Shown in pieces: positions 11,186 to 62,185 of a DNA stretch of 64,000 nt. The position numbers and the translations under genes are program-made. The notes under the pieces are model-generated. The model saw only the letters and a list, made by a program, of their open reading frames with translations. It made no database searches and was not told where the DNA came from. The DNA is from Deltaproteobacteria bacterium. GTDB lineage: Bacteria > Bdellovibrionota > Bdellovibrionia > Bdellovibrionales > Bdellovibrionaceae. The stretch is from assembly GCA_017302835.1 (NCBI GenBank), contig JAFLCC010000011.1, positions 1 to 64,000 on the forward strand, given 5' to 3'. Numbering within the stretch: position 1 is the stretch's first letter; every line of letters begins with the position of its first letter.

Positions 11186-11872
11186 TTAGGATTCTTTAAA
11201 TTTATTGATATACTCAATAATTTGACTTTTGAATTCAGGTGAAATTGAAGAAAATTTAAGCCCTGTGTATCCATCTGGACCCACATAAACCACATCAGCT
11301 TGGATGTGGATATCTGTTGATAAATTAGGACTTTGTAGAACTCCTTTAAGAGAAACTCCTGGTCTTAAAGAAGAGTCGTCCGCAACACCGCAGCCCCCCT
11401 CGGAAATAGTGACGACTTTAGAATGAACCGGAGAATGGTCGTCAACCCTTTCTCCTATAAGAAAACCGAGGATAGGGACCCGTGGAGTGTTTCTTCTGGT
11501 GACACCTAATGCATCAGCTATCGCAGTGACCGAAAAAACACTTTCCCATTTTGACAGGGATTCATTTTTAACGGCAGCATTTTCAAATGTATCTAAAGCT
11601 TTGAGGGCTTTAATTAACTCATTAAAAGAAAGAGGTTCAGACTCTTTGCCGTCATTTTTGAATTTCCAAACGGGGTCTTTTGGCGCTGTTTCTATTTTGT
11701 TTTTATTCGAAGTCAGGTAATGATTCCATTCCGTTGGACTGAGCCATTCCGTCATCCCTTTCCCCCAAATAAGAAGAGTTTTTTCCAAATTTTTTAAAAG
11801 GTATTGCTCAATTTGAGTTTGATCAAAAGGACCAGAAATTATATTGTCTTTTTGGACAAACCATTTGTTCAT
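11186..11872 (-). CDS. GYF-like plus PilZ domain protein
   Basis: A cytoplasmic 228-residue protein. Residues 1-55 form a GYF_2-type module (WFVQKDNIISGPFDQTQIEQ, then GMTEWLSPTEW). A second, weaker copy may follow at about 67-110. The C-terminal part (about 130-225) is a PilZ domain with RRNTPRVPI and TISEGGCGV in place of the classical RxxxR and D/NxSxxG c-di-GMP-binding motifs. It probably binds c-di-GMP or is a degenerate relative. It lies downstream of two envelope-protein genes on the same strand. Confidence 0.75.
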   Translation of the reverse strand: MNKWFVQKDNIISGPFDQTQIEQYLLKNLEKTLLIWGKGMTEWLSPTEWNHYLTSNKNKIETAPKDPVWKFKNDGKESEPLSFNELIKALKALDTFENAAVKNESLSKWESVFSVTAIADALGVTRRNTPRVPILGFLIGERVDDHSPVHSKVVTISEGGCGVADDSSLRPGVSLKGVLQSPNLSTDIHIQADVVYVGPDGYTGLKFSSISPEFKSQIIEYINKFKES

Positions 11873-11896
11873 GTTATCAAAATCGCTTAAAAATAT

Positions 11897-12586
11897 CTAA
11901 TTGCCTAGTGTTTTTTCCAAATGTTTTTTATCCTGGACCTCTAGAGAGTTTCCTTCATTTTTTAAATAAGCTTTGGCAGTCTTAAGTCGTTCAAGCAAAA
12001 AAATATTATCTGTTTTTTCGAGTATTTTATTTATTAGTTTCTGCGAGGCGATTTTATCTGGTGAATTTTGAATTCCCTCTATGGCCTGGGCTCTAAGAAC
12101 ATTTTCAAAATCGAGGAGTCTTTCTTTTAAAGAGTTAGGAATAGGGGTTAGAAGAACCTGTTCTAACTCTTTAGTTGCAGTTGGCGATTTTGATAATAAG
12201 AAAATGGATTCAAATCTTAAATCTTGAGGGAGGGCCGTATCTAAAGCATTTTCCTTAAGCTTTTTTTTCTCTGATAATTTTAAACCATGTGCTCTTAGGG
12301 AAAGCTTTTCATCTTCTTGATCTGGTTCTGAATTTAGATAAGCTACTGGTTCTTCATTCTTAATTGGATCTGTTTTAGTCATCACTGAGACGGGCGTAGG
12401 AGGAAGGTTGGAAGTCGTCGGGGCGCTAACGTGAGAGGGGCCCCGATTTGAATCACCTGAATCATCAGGGGTCTTTTTATGAGATCCTTTTTTGATTAAG
12501 CCATCTGCCATAAAAATAAGTACAGCCATCAGTGCTAACCAAAAAAATTTACTTTTAAATAAGACAAATCCTTTTTTATAAGTCAT
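11897..12586 (-). CDS. membrane-anchored protein of unknown function
   Basis: Not recognised. The 229-residue protein has a single N-terminal membrane segment (about 13-27), a Ser/Pro/Thr-rich disordered stretch (about 35-95) and a helical C-terminal half (about 100-229) that could form HEAT-like helical pairs. It is likely anchored in the inner membrane with the rest in the periplasm. It lies 14 bases after the metalloprotease-like gene and is probably co-transcribed with it. Confidence 0.6.
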   Translation of the reverse strand: MTYKKGFVLFKSKFFWLALMAVLIFMADGLIKKGSHKKTPDDSGDSNRGPSHVSAPTTSNLPPTPVSVMTKTDPIKNEEPVAYLNSEPDQEDEKLSLRAHGLKLSEKKKLKENALDTALPQDLRFESIFLLSKSPTATKELEQVLLTPIPNSLKERLLDFENVLRAQAIEGIQNSPDKIASQKLINKILEKTDNIFLLERLKTAKAYLKNEGNSLEVQDKKHLEKTLGN

Positions 12587-53004: not shown

Positions 53005-53811
53005 TTAGTTTTTAATTACTTTATTTAGCTTTACTTTAGTTTTTAGAATTCCTGTTAGTTTTTCTTTGAGATTCAGAGCTAGCGAAATCCCTAACTCGCC
53101 CTTTATATCTGAAATTTGAGTTTTCGGCAAATCTTTAACAAATTTTGCAGAGTTTATATAAAATTCTTCTTCTTTATTAAGGTGATGTTTCCATATTTTT
53201 TCATAGGTGGTAGGGGTTAAAGTTTCTCTATTCCCATCCAAATACTCTAATTGAGAAGAGAGCTCCCTGGGCGAGTAATCACTATAGACCAAGACCTCTT
53301 CCGCTAGGGCCATCTCTAAATAACTGAGGTAATTTTCAAAGGCCTTCCAAAAAAGACTTCCTTTTTTTCCGTAGCTGGACTCACAATAAAAGCTCGCACA
53401 AACACTCCCTCTAAAAATCCATATTCCACAATGGTTTTTGTCTTTTAAATAATAAGGACAAAGAAAGGAATCTGATTGGCCAAAGATCTTGCTCTTATTT
53501 TTTTTAAAATACTTTTGATATTCAGGAGGCGCTACCACCCCTAGTGGCAATACAAAACGATGATTTTGAATGAGGTCCCTTATCACTTTTTGAGCCACTG
53601 CGTATTTTTCTTCCCGACTCAATAACAGGCTTCCAATGATGTAATTAGGGATAAAGGGCCAAAAGGTGCAACATTTTAAATCTGCTTTATACTTACGAGG
53701 AGCCTGAATGCAGGCTTCACAAGTTGCTTTATTTTCATCAAGGCTGAGGTTCCACAGCGACTCATCAAAAAAAGGCTGGTAGACTTCAGGTAGGAGATAT
53801 TTTATCTTCAT
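53005..53811 (-). CDS. cysteine-rich protein coupled to cheB
   Basis: A 268-residue cytoplasmic protein, not recognised. Eight cysteines occur as CEAC (31, 34), CC (47, 48), C118, C128, C138 and C143, with aromatic motifs TFWPFIPNYIIG and WIFRGSVCASFYC between. The pattern suggests a bound metal or iron-sulfur centre, remotely like YkgJ-type cysteine clusters. Its ATG overlaps the cheB stop (TAATG), so it is translated with the chemotaxis genes, and sufE follows. Confidence 0.7.
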   Translation of the reverse strand: MKIKYLLPEVYQPFFDESLWNLSLDENKATCEACIQAPRKYKADLKCCTFWPFIPNYIIGSLLLSREEKYAVAQKVIRDLIQNHRFVLPLGVVAPPEYQKYFKKNKSKIFGQSDSFLCPYYLKDKNHCGIWIFRGSVCASFYCESSYGKKGSLFWKAFENYLSYLEMALAEEVLVYSDYSPRELSSQLEYLDGNRETLTPTTYEKIWKHHLNKEEEFYINSAKFVKDLPKTQISDIKGELGISLALNLKEKLTGILKTKVKLNKVIKN

Positions 53812-55280
53812 TAAGCGGATTTATGCTTTGAACTCGAGACAGATGCAAGCTCCATTATTTTTTCGCCGATAACTTCCAAAGGAAGAACATACTCGGCAGC
53901 GCCTCGTTCAATCGCTTCCCTTGGCATCCCGTAAACAATGCAGCTATCTTTATTCTGCGCAATGGTTCTGGCTCCTGCCTTTCTTAAATTGAGTAATTCC
54001 CTGGCCCCATCAGCACCCATACCCGTAAGGATCACACCAATAACCTTAGGAAATCCTTGCTCGACCACCGATTTAAACAAATAGTCCACACTGGGTTTAT
54101 GGCGATTCATGGGTTCATCATCTTTAATAACCAACTTGCTATATTGCCCGCGTTTCTTCACGGCCATCTGCATTCCACCAGGAGCTATATAAACGCAGTT
54201 TTTTTTGAGATCATCTCCATCTCTGGCTTCAACCACTTCAAAGGGAAATAGCTCATTAAGTCTCTTGGCGAAGGCCGTAGAGAAAACGGGAGGGATATGT
54301 TGGACCACAAGTATAGGTGGAATCTCCTTTGGTAGATGAGCAAAAAGAATTTTCAAAGCTTCCGTTCCTCCCGTGGAAGAACCAATGACCACTAATGATT
54401 GTGGGTCCAACTGTCTGGGAGTGTAACTTGCCATGGGTTTCTTCTTGATCAGATTCGCTCTGAGTTTTTTCTCTACAGAGATATGGGAAGCTGTTTTAAT
54501 TCTCTCGATTATAATGGGTGCCATGACATCAAGTTCTTGCAAGGTTGGTTTTTGAATGTAATCAACAGCCCCATTTTCAAGAGCGTTGAAAACCTGAGGT
54601 CCCTCTTCTTGACTTATAGAGCTAATCATCACTATGGGAACTTTATATAATGGTGCTAGTTTTTTTACCAACTGAATCCCGTCTATGTGGGGCATATTGA
54701 TATCCATAGTGATCACATCAGGTTTATGTTTTTGGTATAATTCCTCTGCATGAAGAGGGTCTTCACAAGTGGCGACGATTTCTAAATTTTTGTCTTTTTT
54801 AAAGATGACCGTTAATAATTGAATGATGGTGGGTGAATCATCCACAATCATCACCTTGATGGGTTTATTTGAAACCAAATCATGCGAAGAATCGACATGA
54901 TTTGCATTCGGCTGTGTGGAGTCTTCTTTTTTCAGAATGATTTTATGATCGTCAACGGTATAATAAACTTCAAAATCATGTTCTCTAATGACTTGCTTTA
55001 GGACTGTCGAATTAAGGGATTGCAAAAAGTGAGCAATCTCATCACTGCATTTTTTGGGCCCAATAATTTTAAAACTTAATTCGGAGTCTGAAGCCTGAAG
55101 TCTGACTTTAATTTCTTTCAGCATTTCTTTAAAAGAGGGCAAATTCATTTCGTGAAGTAAGCACACAAGGCTTTTCTTATTTTGTGTGGCCGCATAGATA
55201 AAAACGCTTTGATTTACCTTTAAAAGCAGAGTCTCTGATGGGTTTCCTGCAAACACTTCAAATTTAAACTTCATATCCAC
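53811..55280 (-). CDS. cheB: CheB methylesterase with N-terminal CheD-like domain
   Basis: Demethylates/deamidates chemoreceptors. Residues 141-262 are the receiver (VDDSP, D193 in TMDINMP, MISS, YIQKP). Residues 294-482 are the methylesterase with the full triad S302 (GSSTGG), H328 (VQHIP) and D424 (TGMGADG). The extra N-terminal 120 residues resemble CheD in outline (EVFAGNPSE, LLHEMNLP with H43, SFKIIGP, then a KIILKK end), but the position of CheD's catalytic cysteine reads Ser-Val (NQSVF). The GTG start follows GAGG. Confidence 0.93.
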   Translation of the reverse strand: MDMKFKFEVFAGNPSETLLLKVNQSVFIYAATQNKKSLVCLLHEMNLPSFKEMLKEIKVRLQASDSELSFKIIGPKKCSDEIAHFLQSLNSTVLKQVIREHDFEVYYTVDDHKIILKKEDSTQPNANHVDSSHDLVSNKPIKVMIVDDSPTIIQLLTVIFKKDKNLEIVATCEDPLHAEELYQKHKPDVITMDINMPHIDGIQLVKKLAPLYKVPIVMISSISQEEGPQVFNALENGAVDYIQKPTLQELDVMAPIIIERIKTASHISVEKKLRANLIKKKPMASYTPRQLDPQSLVVIGSSTGGTEALKILFAHLPKEIPPILVVQHIPPVFSTAFAKRLNELFPFEVVEARDGDDLKKNCVYIAPGGMQMAVKKRGQYSKLVIKDDEPMNRHKPSVDYLFKSVVEQGFPKVIGVILTGMGADGARELLNLRKAGARTIAQNKDSCIVYGMPREAIERGAAEYVLPLEVIGEKIMELASVSSSKHKSA

Positions 55281-55312: not shown

Positions 55313-57232
55313 TTACTTTTTAACATCCTCATTTTTAACAAAAAAATCTTCACTCACTGACAAATAAGAATTTGCTGGCACCAAGGCCTGAGCCACCTCT
55401 TTGAGCTGAGTGTAGTAACTATTATTTACATTTCCAGCCATCTCTTCAAGAGTTAAATGCTTTGGCTGAATTTCTAAAATGTTCTGAAGAACCTTTTTAC
55501 TTGGCATTCCTAATACTAATACAGACACGGTTTTACCCTTAATTGTTTTGGCCCAGCTGTTTAGATTTTTTTCTAAATCTGTAATATAAATTTGTTTGTC
55601 CAACAGACTTACTAATTGGTCAACCTGGTTTGTTTTGATGGCGGTTTTTTGATTGAACTTTAAAACTAATGGGGCCAAGGCCTCATAGACTCCTTCGTAA
55701 ACAAACACTGTTGAGGGGTCGTTGGCGTGAATATTTTTGACCATATCCAAAGCCACCTTTGTATTTGCTGATGACAAACTGGAAAAAACAATCCGAAGTT
55801 TACTTTCCGTGTTTTTAATTTCATATTTCTTTTTAAAGGAGCTATCAATATCTGAAAGTTTTTTATTCTTAAATTTAAAAGCAAAAGCTAATTTCAACTT
55901 CGATCTTATTTCATCTGATCGCTCTTCTAGGTTAGCCATGGTTGGCTTTTCCACATAGTCGCTGGCTCCCAGCTCGATGGATTTCATAGCGGTATCGCTG
56001 TTTTCGCGATTGATACTTGAAATCATAACAACCGGAGGGTGTCGATCATTCATTTGTGATTTTAAATAGTCGATTCCATCCATTTCTGGCATATGGATAT
56101 CTAAAGTTACTAGATCTGGTTTCAGCTCACTGACTTTTTTGATGGCTTCTTTACCGTTTAAGGCCGTTCCAACCACTTCAAAACCAGAATCTTTTCCTAA
56201 AATCTTTTTCAAGAGAGCAAGAATCGTGGGAGAATCATCCACACAAAGAACCTTTAAAGTTGATGGCATCTGAAAAACAGCGGGTGCCACAACTGGAGTC
56301 TTTGGAAGCAAGGATGGTTTTGCCGACTGAGCTAGTTTTGATTTGGGATCCATAACTTTGACCTCTGTCGCTTTTTTCGCATTGGCATAAATGCTAGGCC
56401 CCCGGTAATCGACATTGTCAACGACTCCATTTAAAGACTCTGAGATTCCAATAAAAAACAAACCTTCTGGCTTGAGATAACTCATTAAATTTTTTGAAAT
56501 GGATTTAATTTGAGCCATGTTAAAATAAATAAAAACATTCCGGCAGAAAATAAAATCAAACTTTTTAGAAGGCAATTTGATATCGTTCAAATTGACGATA
56601 TCAAATTGACAATTCTTTTTAAACTCATCTTTAATTTTGGCAAAATGAGAAATATCTCCCGTTCCCCTCGTCCAATTTGTTCCAAGATATTGCATCGGAA
56701 TTTTTTTAACTTCATCCCAGGCATAAACGCCGTTTCTGGCGATATTTACGCTTTCAGAATCTACATCTGTCCCCAGAATTTCATAAGAAATATCTGGAGC
56801 TATCATTTTCAAGTGGGTTTGAAAGAATAAGGCTAAAGAATAGACTTCTTGACCGCGGGAACAAGCGGCAGACCAAATCGAAATTTTTTTATCACCGCTG
56901 GCTCTGGCTTTTAGAACCAGCTCTGGCAAATAAGCTATTAAAAACTCAAAATGATTAAATTCTCGAAAAAAATAAGTGTGATGCGTTGTCATCAAGGAAA
57001 CCAACTTTTCTGTTTCCGCAATTTTATGAGCATTGAAATACGCAAAGTAATCTGTAAATAGAGGAATCCCCAACTTGATCATGTAGGACTTGAGTCTATT
57101 TTTAACCATGGAGAATTGTTTTTCGCCTAACTGAATCCCCGTTGATTGATGAACCACCCTAGAGATTTCGCCAAGAACATGCTTTATTTCTTCTTCTGAT
57201 TCATAAGGACCATCTATCTTATATTCACCCAT
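55313..57232 (-). CDS. cheR: CheR methyltransferase fused to receiver and CheB-like remnant domain
   Basis: Methylates chemoreceptor glutamates. Residues 1-285 form CheR (helical N-domain, TYFFREFNHFE, SAACSRGQEVYSLA for SAM, FIFCRNVFIYFN). After a linker, residues 325-445 form a CheB-type receiver (VDDSP, D378 in TLDIHMPEMDG, MISS, YVEKP). Residues about 478-625 follow the order of a CheB methylesterase (IVFSSLSSANTKVALDMVKN, then VSVLVLGMPSKKVLQNIL) but lack the Ser, His and Asp of the triad. Usual CheR is about 280 residues. Confidence 0.92.
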   Translation of the reverse strand: MGEYKIDGPYESEEEIKHVLGEISRVVHQSTGIQLGEKQFSMVKNRLKSYMIKLGIPLFTDYFAYFNAHKIAETEKLVSLMTTHHTYFFREFNHFEFLIAYLPELVLKARASGDKKISIWSAACSRGQEVYSLALFFQTHLKMIAPDISYEILGTDVDSESVNIARNGVYAWDEVKKIPMQYLGTNWTRGTGDISHFAKIKDEFKKNCQFDIVNLNDIKLPSKKFDFIFCRNVFIYFNMAQIKSISKNLMSYLKPEGLFFIGISESLNGVVDNVDYRGPSIYANAKKATEVKVMDPKSKLAQSAKPSLLPKTPVVAPAVFQMPSTLKVLCVDDSPTILALLKKILGKDSGFEVVGTALNGKEAIKKVSELKPDLVTLDIHMPEMDGIDYLKSQMNDRHPPVVMISSINRENSDTAMKSIELGASDYVEKPTMANLEERSDEIRSKLKLAFAFKFKNKKLSDIDSSFKKKYEIKNTESKLRIVFSSLSSANTKVALDMVKNIHANDPSTVFVYEGVYEALAPLVLKFNQKTAIKTNQVDQLVSLLDKQIYITDLEKNLNSWAKTIKGKTVSVLVLGMPSKKVLQNILEIQPKHLTLEEMAGNVNNSYYTQLKEVAQALVPANSYLSVSEDFFVKNEDVKK

Positions 57233-57234
57233 GA

Positions 57235-59781
57235 TTAAACCTCTTCAAATCTTGGATCATTTGAATTGGGCACACTGTCTCCAGAAACAGCCTTTTGACT
57301 TGGACCCACATTCTCTTTACCCAGAACTTTAAAATTTTCTTTAATGGTAGTTTTCGTATCTACTTTAGGGGCAACCTTAGGGGCTACTTTGGAAGCTATT
57401 TTGATCGGCTCTTTAGCAATGGCTTTAGTGGGAACTCTCACTGTCGTGTTCATAACGGTTTCTTTCTTCTTAAAGGCTAAAACCTTTTCATTTTTTGTCG
57501 GCAAAATCTTGTTCGCTTGAATTTTTTTGGCTTCAAGAGGAACCTTTTCAATCCGCGTCTTGTTATTAAAAATGGAAGCTTTTACTATCAACTCAGGCTT
57601 GAGCGTTGGTTCTTTTGATTTGGTAGCAACAGCCGTGATCTTGGGCGCTCCCGTAGTCGACGCTGTTGTGGCTTTTGGTTCAATTGGCACCGTTGAATTT
57701 TTTGGAACTGATTTTATGGGGTTAGGTTTCATTGAAGTTGATTTGATGGGAACATTTGAATGATTTTCAAGAGGTTCTCTATCATCCTTTTCTCCATAAA
57801 TGACATTCTGTAAAGCCTCTACTTGTTTTTTTAACTCATCCGATTTTTGATTCACTTCAACCGAAGATGACCTTGATTCTTGAGCTATCTTAGCATTTTC
57901 CGAAGTGGTTAAGTCTAATTGCCCCATGGCTTTTGAAATTTCCTTAATTCCATGAGCTTGTTCCTCAGAAGATCTCGAAATCTCAGTCACATAATTATCA
58001 ACTTTTTTCACATTTTTATCAATATCTTCAAGGGCTAAATTACATTCGCTGGCGGTTTGCTTTCCTTGCTCCACTTTTTGTTTGGCTACACGGATAAGCT
58101 CTTCCACTTTTATTTCTGTTTCTTTTACAATCAGTTCGGTTTTTCTCTGACTTTCATCTAGAAGGCTGGCAATTTCCTTAGCTGCACCTCCGCTCATTTG
58201 TGCTAGTTTTCCAACTTCTTCTGCCACCACAGCAAATCCTTTACCATATTCGCCGGCCCTTGCGGCCTCAACCGAGGCATTAAAGCTTAACAACTTCGTT
58301 TGAAAAACAATGTCATTAATCACTTTCGTTTTATTCCCGATATCTGAAATCAATTTTACAATTTCACTTATTTTTCCATTATTTTCCTTCATTTGATCAG
58401 ATATGGAGTCATTCGAACTTGAAATATCCTCGATAGACTTTAGCATGTTCACAATGGTTTTTTTACCCAGATCCGTGGCCAGCAAACTTTCTCCAGAAAC
58501 GGCCTTCGATTGTCTTGAAGCCTCACTATTTTTCTCAACAGTGGCCGCTATCTCATCCACAGCCGCCATGGTTTCTTGAATCGCGCTGGATTGCTCTGTT
58601 GCGGCTTCAGACAGCCGAGTGCTCTGCAAAGTTAAAGAGCCAGAAGTGCTGTTTAAGCCTTCTGCGTTCATGTCAAGAAGACTGGAAATTGAGGACAAAC
58701 TTTTTCCAATTTGATTCCCGAAAAAATAAGTAACTACGAATCCAACCACGATACACAATGAAAAAACAATATAGAATAAATTAAAGACCTGGTTAATAGA
58801 AGCTAGGACTTCTTTTTCATTCCCTCTGACCAGTACACCCCAACCCACAGAATCAATCATCTTAGAGCCTTTGATCATCCTGTATCCTATGATCTGAGGG
58901 AAATTCTTTTCAAGATGAAATCCATCCGTCACACCTTCTTTATCCTTAATTAATTCTTCAGCTGCTTTGAGTTTTTCTGCAACTAAATTTAATTTGAAGG
59001 TTTTCTTTTCTAAATCGAACTTAACCTCATTTTTTCCTCCATTTTCAGAAGGATCATGATCTATCAACACCACACCTTTTTTATCAATGATGGTGATTTC
59101 AGTATGGGCCAAATTGTCTCGCTTTAAATCTTCATAAATTCTCACCAGGGAATCCTCAATCCATTTAGTGGAAGACCTGGTGGTAATCACTCCGACCAAT
59201 TCTCCATTTTTATTTTTGATAACTGACGTAAAGCTGGCCCCAACATAATCGCCTCCTTGTGCTAACTTTCTGACTGGATCTGGGTGCAAATCTTCAAAAT
59301 AAGTTCCCACAAAGCCTTTTATTTTATCTTCAGTAAATTCGCCAGAAACGGCTTTTCTAAACCATCTCTCTTGAGAAAAATTGTATTTTTCCATAGCTTC
59401 TACTTTTATCGGTCTTCCTAAAACATCTTTTGTATTTGAACTGACAAATTGCCCCGTTTTGTCTACAACCAAAATAACCTCATAAAAACCATACAAAGAA
59501 ACATATTCGTTCAATACCTTTGATAAGTTAGCTTTATCCAAATTTTTTATGGACTCATTGACTGCAAAGGCCTGAACATCACTGTAACTTTCAAAAAATT
59601 GATCTTGAATAAAATAGCTCAAATTTGTAGCATGATTAAAGAAATTGTAAGAAATATCTTTAACATATTCTTCTCGGAAGTTTTGAAATAGTCCAAAACT
59701 GATGAGACCGAACATAAACACTATGGAGTTAACAACAATCATGATCTTAATTCTTAAAGACATCCTTTTGAACAATTTCAT
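57235..59781 (-). CDS. methyl-accepting chemotaxis protein with Cache-type sensor
   Basis: A chemoreceptor of 848 residues. It has a first membrane segment (about 12-30), a periplasmic dCache-like sensor (about 35-320, GVGYFED-like [10 protein letters not shown] and [11 protein letters not shown]), a second membrane segment (about 333-355), no clear HAMP, and the signalling hairpin with the conserved tip [19 protein letters not shown]. Methylation helices flank it. The last 180 residues are a disordered Lys/Pro/Thr tail with [10 protein letters not shown] repeats. It ends DPRFEEV, a near miss to the CheR-tethering pentapeptide. Operon order puts it between cheW and cheR. Confidence 0.92.
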
Positions 59782-59795
59782 ACCTACCTCTATTA

Positions 59796-60275
59796 TTATG
59801 CTGCTTTAGTTACGCTCTTTTGCATCGCTGCTTTATCATCATGTGACAAGGCCTTAAAAATATCTAACAGAAGAACTAATTGTTCCGTTTTTCTAAAGAC
59901 ACCCGTAATGTATTCTGTACTTCTGGAACTCTCAATCATCGGTTTTTCTGAAATTTCTGAGTTTTTGATTGCAAGAACAGAGGTCACTGAATCAACAACA
60001 ACACCCAAAAATTCGGTTTTTAAATCTAAAATAATAACTGAATTTTCCTCAGTTTTTTTGGGAGAAATTGAGAACTTCTTCCTAAGGTCAATCACCGAAA
60101 TGACTTGGCCCCGCAAGTTCATAATCCCAAGGAAATGAGCTGGCGTGTGGGGAATCGGTGTGGTTTCTGGAATGGCAATAACTTCCTTCACTGTTAAAAG
60201 GGGAATAGCAAACTCCTCAATACCCAGAGAAAAATTTAAGTACCTATTTACTTCATCTTGGTTTTCATGATTCAT
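59796..60275 (-). CDS. cheW: chemotaxis coupling protein
   Basis: A 159-residue CheW linking receptors to CheA. Typical segments are [22 protein letters not shown], the [28 protein letters not shown] region in two SH3-like halves, and a terminal ILLDIFK-like strand. Start overlaps cheA by ATGA. Normal length. Confidence 0.95.
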
Positions 60276-62185
60276 GATGCCCTCCCAATTTCTTGAGGCT
60301 TAATATTGTTTATTGTTTTTCCTCTTGCTCTAACTAAATCCAAAGGTTCAATAATTAAAGAGGGTCTCCCATCTCCAAGTATGGTGCTTCCGCTAAACCC
60401 TTTTATAGATTGCAATTCAGGACCAAGCTGTTTGATAACCACTTGAAACTGACCTATGATATCATCAACTAAGAGCGCAAAAGGCTCTTTTCCAGTTCTA
60501 ATAACAATGGCAATCATATTTTCTAAATTCGCTGTCACTTTCTTACCTAGTAATAAACACATGCGATACAAGGGTAAATTTTCTCCTCTTAACAAAAGAA
60601 TCTCGCCAATTCCTGTGTTAAATTGAATTTGTTTATCGGTTGGCTTAATGGATTCGTGTACGTGAGAAAGTGGTATTACATATTTCTCTTCACCAATTTG
60701 AACAACCATTCCATCGACAATAGCAAGGGTTAAAGGTAAAATAATTTTAAATGTCGTCCCCTTTAATTTTTCTGAAATGATTTGAATTTCGCCAGAAAGC
60801 TCTTGAATGTTTGTTCTGACAACATCCATTCCTACACCCCGACCAGAAACATCGGTAACTTGTTCCTTCGTTGAAAATCCAGGTGCAAAAATAAGATTCC
60901 AACACTCTGCCTCTGTTAGATTTAAGTTTTCTTTGATAATTCCTTTTTTAACAGCCAGGGCTTTTAATTTTTCAGCATCAAGCCCCCCTCCATCATCTTT
61001 GACTTCGATCACAAGCTTTCCACTTTGATGATAAGCATTTAATTGAACTTCTCCCTGGGGCTTCTTGCCTCTTTTTAAATGGAGGTCGACGGCTTCGATA
61101 CCGTGATCTACAGAGTTTCTAATTAAATGAACTAAGGGATCGTTTATTTTTTCTAATACCGTTTTGTCCAACTCAGTTTCTTCACCTGACACCTTCAACA
61201 TCACATCTTTGCTCAGTGCCTGAGCGGTATCCCTGACAATTCGTTGCATTTTCTGAAAGGTCGGCTTCACCGGCACCATTCTTAAATGCATGGTGATATC
61301 TTGAATTTCTTTAACCACTTTCCCAAGCTGATGAGATGTTTTTTTGATAAACAAAGGGGTGGAATCACTTAATTGCTCTCGCAATACTGATTGCAGGATC
61401 ACCATTTCCCCTACGTAGTTTTGTAATTTTTCAAGTCTCGATAACGAAACCCTGATACTTTCATCAGTTTGTGAACCACTTGCCGTCTTTGGAGAATTCC
61501 CCTCCTTAGATTTATTTTTGTTTTGTGATTCAGGTGAAACTATGGAATCAGGCGTTGTTTTTAAAGGCAAAGGATCGTTGTTTTCTGAAAGTTTTTTAAC
61601 CTCTCCAAGAACACTTTCTAAATCAAGCTGAAAGCCTTTGTCTTCCTTTGCCTTTACTCCTGGAGCCAAGGCCTGCTCATCTGCAGGATTATAGCCAAGG
61701 GTTTGTTTTATAAATTCCAAAGGATCTTCTGTTTTATTTGTAAACTCAGCGGCAGAGGGTGCCGAAGTTTCAACCGTTTCCATTTCAGCAAATTGCCCAT
61801 TTTTTGCATTTTCAATTTCAGCGATGAGCTCTTGAAACTCAAAGCTTGCATCCAGATCTTCTTTTAGCGACTCCACCATGTAACGAATGTAATCATTACA
61901 ACGAAGCATCAGATTTACGGTTTGGGGTAAAACCTGTAATTCATCATTTTTTAATTTGAGCATTAAAGATTCAAACTCGTGAGTAAAGGCACCCATTTGT
62001 TCAAAGCCAACAGCCTTCGAGCTTCCCTTCAAATTATGGGCTAATCGAAAAATTTTATCTAAAACCGTTTTGTCCTGAGGGTTAGCCTCTAGAACGAGAA
62101 AACTTTGCTCAACTTCTTCAATGGCCTGCATCGCTTCATCTAAAAAACCGAGTTTCAATTCCTTTTCAAAATCATCCACATTCAC
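60272..62185 (-). CDS. cheA: chemotaxis histidine kinase
   Basis: Receptor-controlled kinase (637 residues). Hpt domain 1-105 with phosphorylated H50 in RLAHNLKGSSKAVG. A long acidic/Ser-rich linker (about 125-235) follows with no recognisable CheY-binding P2 domain. The dimerisation domain (about 240-300, ESIRVSLSRLEKLQNYVGEM), kinase domain (DPLVHLIRNSVDHGIE, DDGGGLDAEKL, SGRGVGMDVV, GTTFKIILPLTLA) and a C-terminal CheW-like domain (505-635) complete it. GGAG precedes the ATG. First gene of the operon; no cheY is nearby. Confidence 0.96.
   Translation of the reverse strand: MNVDDFEKELKLGFLDEAMQAIEEVEQSFLVLEANPQDKTVLDKIFRLAHNLKGSSKAVGFEQMGAFTHEFESLMLKLKNDELQVLPQTVNLMLRCNDYIRYMVESLKEDLDASFEFQELIAEIENAKNGQFAEMETVETSAPSAAEFTNKTEDPLEFIKQTLGYNPADEQALAPGVKAKEDKGFQLDLESVLGEVKKLSENNDPLPLKTTPDSIVSPESQNKNKSKEGNSPKTASGSQTDESIRVSLSRLEKLQNYVGEMVILQSVLREQLSDSTPLFIKKTSHQLGKVVKEIQDITMHLRMVPVKPTFQKMQRIVRDTAQALSKDVMLKVSGEETELDKTVLEKINDPLVHLIRNSVDHGIEAVDLHLKRGKKPQGEVQLNAYHQSGKLVIEVKDDGGGLDAEKLKALAVKKGIIKENLNLTEAECWNLIFAPGFSTKEQVTDVSGRGVGMDVVRTNIQELSGEIQIISEKLKGTTFKIILPLTLAIVDGMVVQIGEEKYVIPLSHVHESIKPTDKQIQFNTGIGEILLLRGENLPLYRMCLLLGKKVTANLENMIAIVIRTGKEPFALLVDDIIGQFQVVIKQLGPELQSIKGFSGSTILGDGRPSLIIEPLDLVRARGKTINNIKPQEIGRAS

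Follow-up and report, generated by a model that had tools for sequence, protein, structure and literature searches.

A CheR methyltransferase fused to a receiver and a dead CheB-like domain suggests reuse of dead enzyme copies to control sensory adaptation in a relative of predatory Bdellovibrio

Background

The phylum Bdellovibrionota is noted for members that prey on other bacteria. In the textbook scheme of receptor adaptation, the methyltransferase CheR is constitutive and feedback from the kinase reaches the methylesterase CheB only. The division of labor is reflected in domain structure: CheB (PF01339; structures 1a2o, 1chd, 3sft and 6ymz) is a receiver (REC) followed by a methylesterase fold, while stand-alone CheR (PF01739, PF03705) has no receiver. 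C-terminally extended forms of CheR have nonetheless been described: these are the CheR-TPR fusions, among which FrzF is reported to have its methylation limited by the TPR part (PMC3447774).

The operon analyzed here departs from each of these precedents. Its CheR is complete and keeps the conserved SAM-site motifs, like the stand-alone enzyme, but is extended by a receiver and by a domain that is CheB-like in its order of strands and helices, where the CheR-TPR fusions have TPR. That last domain follows its receiver just as the methylesterase follows the receiver in CheB, but lacks the His and Asp of the catalytic triad as well as CheB's PVNRHKPSVD segment, and it is attached behind a CheR. 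The nearest relatives in domain order are the CheR-REC-CheB chains of other Bdellovibrionota (L022, L153, L154, L170), whose CheB triad motifs, unlike those of the present protein, are intact and next to which no separate partner gene is seen. The partner gene of the present operon places a fold like that of CheD (PF03975; 2f9z_C) ahead of REC-CheB, as do the CheD-REC-CheB proteins of L143, L168 and L169, but has lost the LGSC and His motifs of CheD; in L168 and L169 CheD is intact and the dead domain is the CheB. No paper on the CheR-REC-dead CheB or CheD-REC-CheB architecture was found among the open-access papers searched, in keeping with a preliminary description of this DNA, which knew of no described CheR of such an architecture.

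The operon and its genome

The window (the whole stretch of DNA that was analyzed, 64,000 nucleotides) comes from a genome of 3.63 Mb in 35 contigs, 99.98% complete. Five co-directional genes run on its minus strand from 62185 to 53811: CheA (60272..62185; Hpt, H-kinase_dim, HATPase_c and CheW domains), CheW (59796..60275; PF01584, 5.2e-36), a chemoreceptor or MCP (57235..59781; PF00015, 7.2e-36), the 639-residue CheR-REC-pseudoCheB protein, an intact open reading frame at 55313..57232, and its 489-residue partner, pseudoCheD-REC-CheB (53811..55280). The whole genome holds one CheR, one CheB and four receptors, and no match to Pfam's CheD (PF03975) anywhere; with a single CheR match genome-wide, the fusion is the cell's only CheR. 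The possibility that the arrangement is an artefact of assembly can be set aside: the two genes turn up together in dozens of assemblies made independently, among them some of few contigs (G008, G055).

Receptors of enteric bacteria carry a tether pentapeptide, NWETF. The MCP of this operon ends in NDPRFEEV (57238-57261, minus strand), and in relatives the MCPs next to the fusion have the endings DPRFEDV, DPRFKEV, DPRFEDI, DPRFQDV or DHEWEDL; by its resemblance to NWETF the tail DPRFEEV is a possible variant of the CheR/CheB-tethering pentapeptide. MCPs beside the one-chain CheR-REC-REC-CheB proteins described below end in NDPGFGE or DDSGFDEA.

The methyltransferase and its receiver

Pfam divides the 639-residue protein into CheR_N (residues 22-65, 6.5e-8), CheR (85-272, 7.1e-47) and a receiver (328-432, 1e-24). 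Both CheR families score above their cut-offs of 27 bits (PF01739 at 159.8, PF03705 at 32.6), and the CheR positions R90, G127, E129, D156, N232 and Y236 are kept in all 24 aligned proteins. The CheR part (residues 20-284; 56381..57175, minus strand) is thus predicted to be a complete methyltransferase whose putative substrates are receptor glutamates. The receiver (residues 326-440; 55913..56257, minus strand; PF00072) retains its entire phospho-acceptor set, D332, D333, D378, S405 and K429; among the aligned relatives the Asp and Lys are present in 24/24, and Ser or Thr likewise. This receiver and that of the partner CheB share 40% identity, and BLASTP finds significant alignment between the two proteins in the receivers only. 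The preliminary description had read the chain as CheR joined to a CheB-type receiver and a dead CheB-like domain; Pfam, fold and residue counts agree on this.

A CheB fold that has lost its chemistry

Pfam has no match for residues 468-639 (55316..55831, minus strand): PF01339 fails to hit them at E ≤ 1 and, searched against the genome, matches the partner CheB alone. The CheB-like identity of this segment rests instead on three legs: profile-profile comparison, predicted structure, and the existence of homologues with an intact CheB following CheR-REC. Compared as profiles by hhalign, the domain and active CheB match at a probability of 80% (E 1.3e-5; 2.4e-5 with 41 sequences). An AlphaFold model made from an alignment of 20 family members has a pLDDT of 92 and a pTM of 0.89; Foldseek places it with 1chd (E 2.8e-6), and its four best PDB matches are all CheB methylesterases (VIA Z scores of 14.5 for 6ymz, 13.9 for 1chd, 13.6 for 3sft and 13.3 for 1a2o), followed by an unrelated protein at 9.6. 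The CheB order of strands and helices that had been read by eye from the letters, together with the structure prediction and fold search that were proposed for checking it, is borne out. A chance resemblance among Rossmann-like folds is ruled out by the 4-5 Z units that separate CheB from the next fold and by the agreement of the sequence profiles; decayed CheD (hhalign probability 0.6%) and homology to the N-terminal domain of the partner protein (0.2%) are excluded as well.

The catalytic residues tell a different story for each member of the triad (assigned by profile sequence alignment, not by residue-level structural superposition). The His190 column, occupied by E513 in the source protein, is never His in 40 relatives (Glu in 30, otherwise Asp, Gln, Asn or Met), and the variable Asp286 column, occupied by K579, is Asp in none of the 40. 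The nucleophile column, Ser164 in CheB, is S485 here and Ser in 21/40. The claim that all three residues had been replaced therefore holds for His and Asp, not for Ser. With two members of the triad missing, the domain is, as far as its residues can tell, catalytically dead as a CheB. Could the retained Ser be the nucleophile of a different chemistry, its new partners being residues like the Glu that now dominates the His190 column? Its frequency and that of the Glu are the reason for asking; the relatives that have G, P, N, T, Q, D or H in place of Ser, the variability at Asp286 and the loss of CheB's glycine-rich turn make such residual chemistry very improbable.

The profile alignment also opens a gap of ~30 residues at CheB's DDxPVNRHKPSVD, from which the PVNRHKPSVD segment is deleted. 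This bears on an alternative that the preliminary description had offered, that the dead domain competes with real CheB for receptors or CheA; by taking up CheB's site there it would lower demethylation. A domain that keeps its fold and loses its catalysis is what a competitor of this kind might look like, but with several surface segments gone, the deleted one among them, and with conserved residues unlike those of CheB, binding to the same site is not assured, and we consider the proposal improbable. The newly conserved residues (numbered by model columns) are E44-G45, S102, G107, E128-D129 and P148-T150-S151-F152, with S151 present in 40/40. In the comparisons that have not reached saturation at synonymous sites, dN/dS is 0.04-0.09 for the pseudo-CheB domain vs 0.03-0.05 for CheR: the domain is constrained, yet evolves faster than the methyltransferase to which it is attached.

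The partner: a CheB behind a decayed CheD

The neighboring protein mirrors the first. Its receiver (54516..54860, minus strand) and methylesterase domain (53814..54401, minus strand; PF01339, 9.9e-62) are those of an ordinary CheB: the motifs GSSTGG, VQHIP and GMGADG are intact, and among 21 relatives the Ser, His and Asp columns (in GSSTGG, QHIP and TGMGxDG) are kept in every one. As judged from these motifs, it is the genome's only active CheB. Ahead of the receiver lies a domain of ~120 residues (residues 1-117; 54930..55280, minus strand) that has no Pfam match and is not hit by PF03975. Its AF2 model (pLDDT 89) finds CheD (2f9z_C) as top match, with a Foldseek E of 9e-6 and a Z of 10.9; the runners-up, from Z 8.0 downward, share the same broad amidohydrolase-like fold. 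Profile comparison with CheD gives E 3e-4 and a probability of 40%, vs 0.6% for the pseudo-CheB control. The intact CheD found in the same domain order in related genomes, L143 (of the same genus), L168 and L169, supports the assignment. LGSC and a His are invariant in 12/12 CheD sequences; the 21 partner N-terminal domains have no such invariant column, and global alignment places no conserved Cys or His there. The domain is a decayed CheD-like one: a CheD fold lacking the CheD active-site motifs. This feature was absent from the preliminary description, and it turns the operon into a reciprocal pair, [CheR]-REC-[dead CheB] and [dead CheD]-REC-[CheB].

Spread and history in Bdellovibrionota

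Across 192 genomes sampled from the phylum, a profile search (E ≤ 0.001) finds the pseudo-CheB domain in 62, of which 8 are weak hits to CheB or to intact CheR-REC-CheB; setting these aside, an exclusion that was checked in part, leaves ~54/192. The domain is thus conserved in many Bdellovibrionota, the point that the profile search proposed in the preliminary description was to decide. (Weak hits in two apparent Bdellovibrio genomes, G048 and G086, are not CheR fusions; they are CheD-REC-CheB proteins.) Wherever the locus extends far enough, the next gene downstream encodes REC-CheB, which in almost every case carries the CheD-like domain as well.

In a tree of 78 CheR domains all of the dead-CheB proteins fall into one clade (support 100/99): on this tree the group has a single origin. 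The active CheR-REC-CheB chains of L022, L153, L154 and L170 lie outside it, the first three adjoining it with weak support (87/10), and a CheR-REC-CheB with intact CheB is likely the ancestral state. Nested within the dead-CheB clade, in a subclade with the source protein (96/96), are six CheR-REC-REC-CheB and two CheR-REC proteins. The former (L142, L148, L149, L150 and L151, together with L155, which is cut by a contig end; ~800-826 residues) join methyltransferase and active methylesterase in one chain with two receivers and neither dead domain. The joint loss of both dead domains could have come about by one deletion across the gene junction, and is for that reason not independent evidence that the two bind each other. 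The CheR-REC proteins, which lack a pseudo-CheB, come from two genomes of the same genus (L143, L147) and indicate that the dead domain is not indispensable. In L145, L156, L157 and L160 the tails are shrunken or diverged and end in a similar motif; L156 and L160 keep their shrunken pseudo-CheB-like tails though their partner CheB has no dead CheD.

One of the CheR-REC proteins, in L143 (4698-8599), stands alone beside a cluster of a separate CheR and an intact CheD-REC-CheB.

Is the dead domain, then, merely a relic, descended from a CheR-REC-CheB fusion that a second CheB made redundant and now passively decaying? Active chains outside the clade and shrunken versions within it are what such a history would leave behind. 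Retention across a large clade, the low dN/dS of the pairs that can be measured, an invariant S151 and the high confidence of the structural model are not, and passive decay is accordingly about as improbable as competition with CheB. Another reading confines the matter to a single chain: the receiver and dead CheB would form a closed cap that, as in real CheB, opens upon phosphorylation and so gates CheR sterically, with the partner and its dead CheD uninvolved. The order of the two domains, which is CheB's own, and the unbroken conservation of the receiver fit this, as does the behavior of the partner's CheD-like domain, the fastest-evolving of all and, in L156 and L160, absent. CheR-REC and CheR-REC-REC-CheB proteins do without any dead CheB, however, and it would be left unexplained why the partner gene lies so strictly next door; a purely intramolecular switch is rather unlikely.

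What the dead domains may do

The reading that we prefer, tentatively and at a little less than an even chance, is that CheR is here regulated by phosphorylation and that the dead CheB has a docking or regulatory role that involves no catalysis. The arguments for it are that the genome has one CheR, one CheB and no Pfam CheD; that the receiver is intact throughout, the domain widespread, the partner adjacent, dN/dS low and a new set of residues conserved; and that the dead-CheB clade has a single origin, with the one-chain and CheR-REC forms nested inside. Against it count the tails that L156 and L160 keep in the absence of a partner CheD-like domain, and the proteins of L143 and L147 that have no pseudo-CheB.

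The steps would be as follows. With intact receiver residues and a CheA in the operon, phosphorylation of both proteins is likely, and that CheA is presumed to be the kinase. The dead CheB may still pack against its own receiver and retain its placement at the receptor array, there to position or restrain CheR, probably together with the dead CheD-REC-CheB partner. Should receptor methylation turn CheA on, the phosphorylated CheR fusion would, under negative feedback, be expected to methylate less. Placing CheR and CheB on one chain, as in CheR-REC-REC-CheB, would make both dead modules dispensable. With a receiver on the genome's only CheR, the methyl-adding as well as the methyl-removing arm of adaptation could come under feedback from the kinase, which would change the feedback logic of adaptation.

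A more ambitious version of this docking scheme has the two chains forming one phospho-controlled complex for methylation and demethylation alike, of which CheR-REC-REC-CheB would be the covalent form; adaptation would have been rebuilt around paired pseudo-enzymes, a dead CheB governing CheR and a dead CheD accompanying the active CheB (in apparent Bdellovibrio, a dead CheB following an intact CheD). This is possible, if on the whole unlikely.

The proteins of these apparent Bdellovibrio genomes, which belong to the same family as the source genome, are the mirror case: CheD-REC-CheB chains of ~520 residues that, as read in L168 (871-2433) and L169 (922-2481), combine an intact CheD with a CheB whose Ser (GGNAGS) and His (ACST) are lost and whose Asp is kept; these genomes additionally carry an ordinary CheB of ~356 residues. 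The receiver-linked fusion of a dead CheB to another adaptation enzyme therefore occurs in more than one context. A proteome study of Bdellovibrio places a CheD (Bd2829) in a protein cluster that rises late in predation (PMC12546842). Taken together, CheR-REC-dead CheB, dead CheD-REC-CheB and CheD-REC-dead CheB, with one dead enzyme to each fused chain, offer a natural series for the study of non-catalytic roles of adaptation enzymes.

Two minor observations concern the surroundings. Directly after the che genes (53005-53811, minus strand) comes a 268-residue, cysteine-containing protein that has no Pfam match, and L002 has a similar open reading frame (11428-12285) after its own che genes. 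On another contig of the source genome (L167:2012-4380; G000, contig 6) a CheY, a CheX/CheC-like gene and a 494-residue, receiver-looking protein lie together; this cluster probably supplies the output of the chemotaxis system described here.
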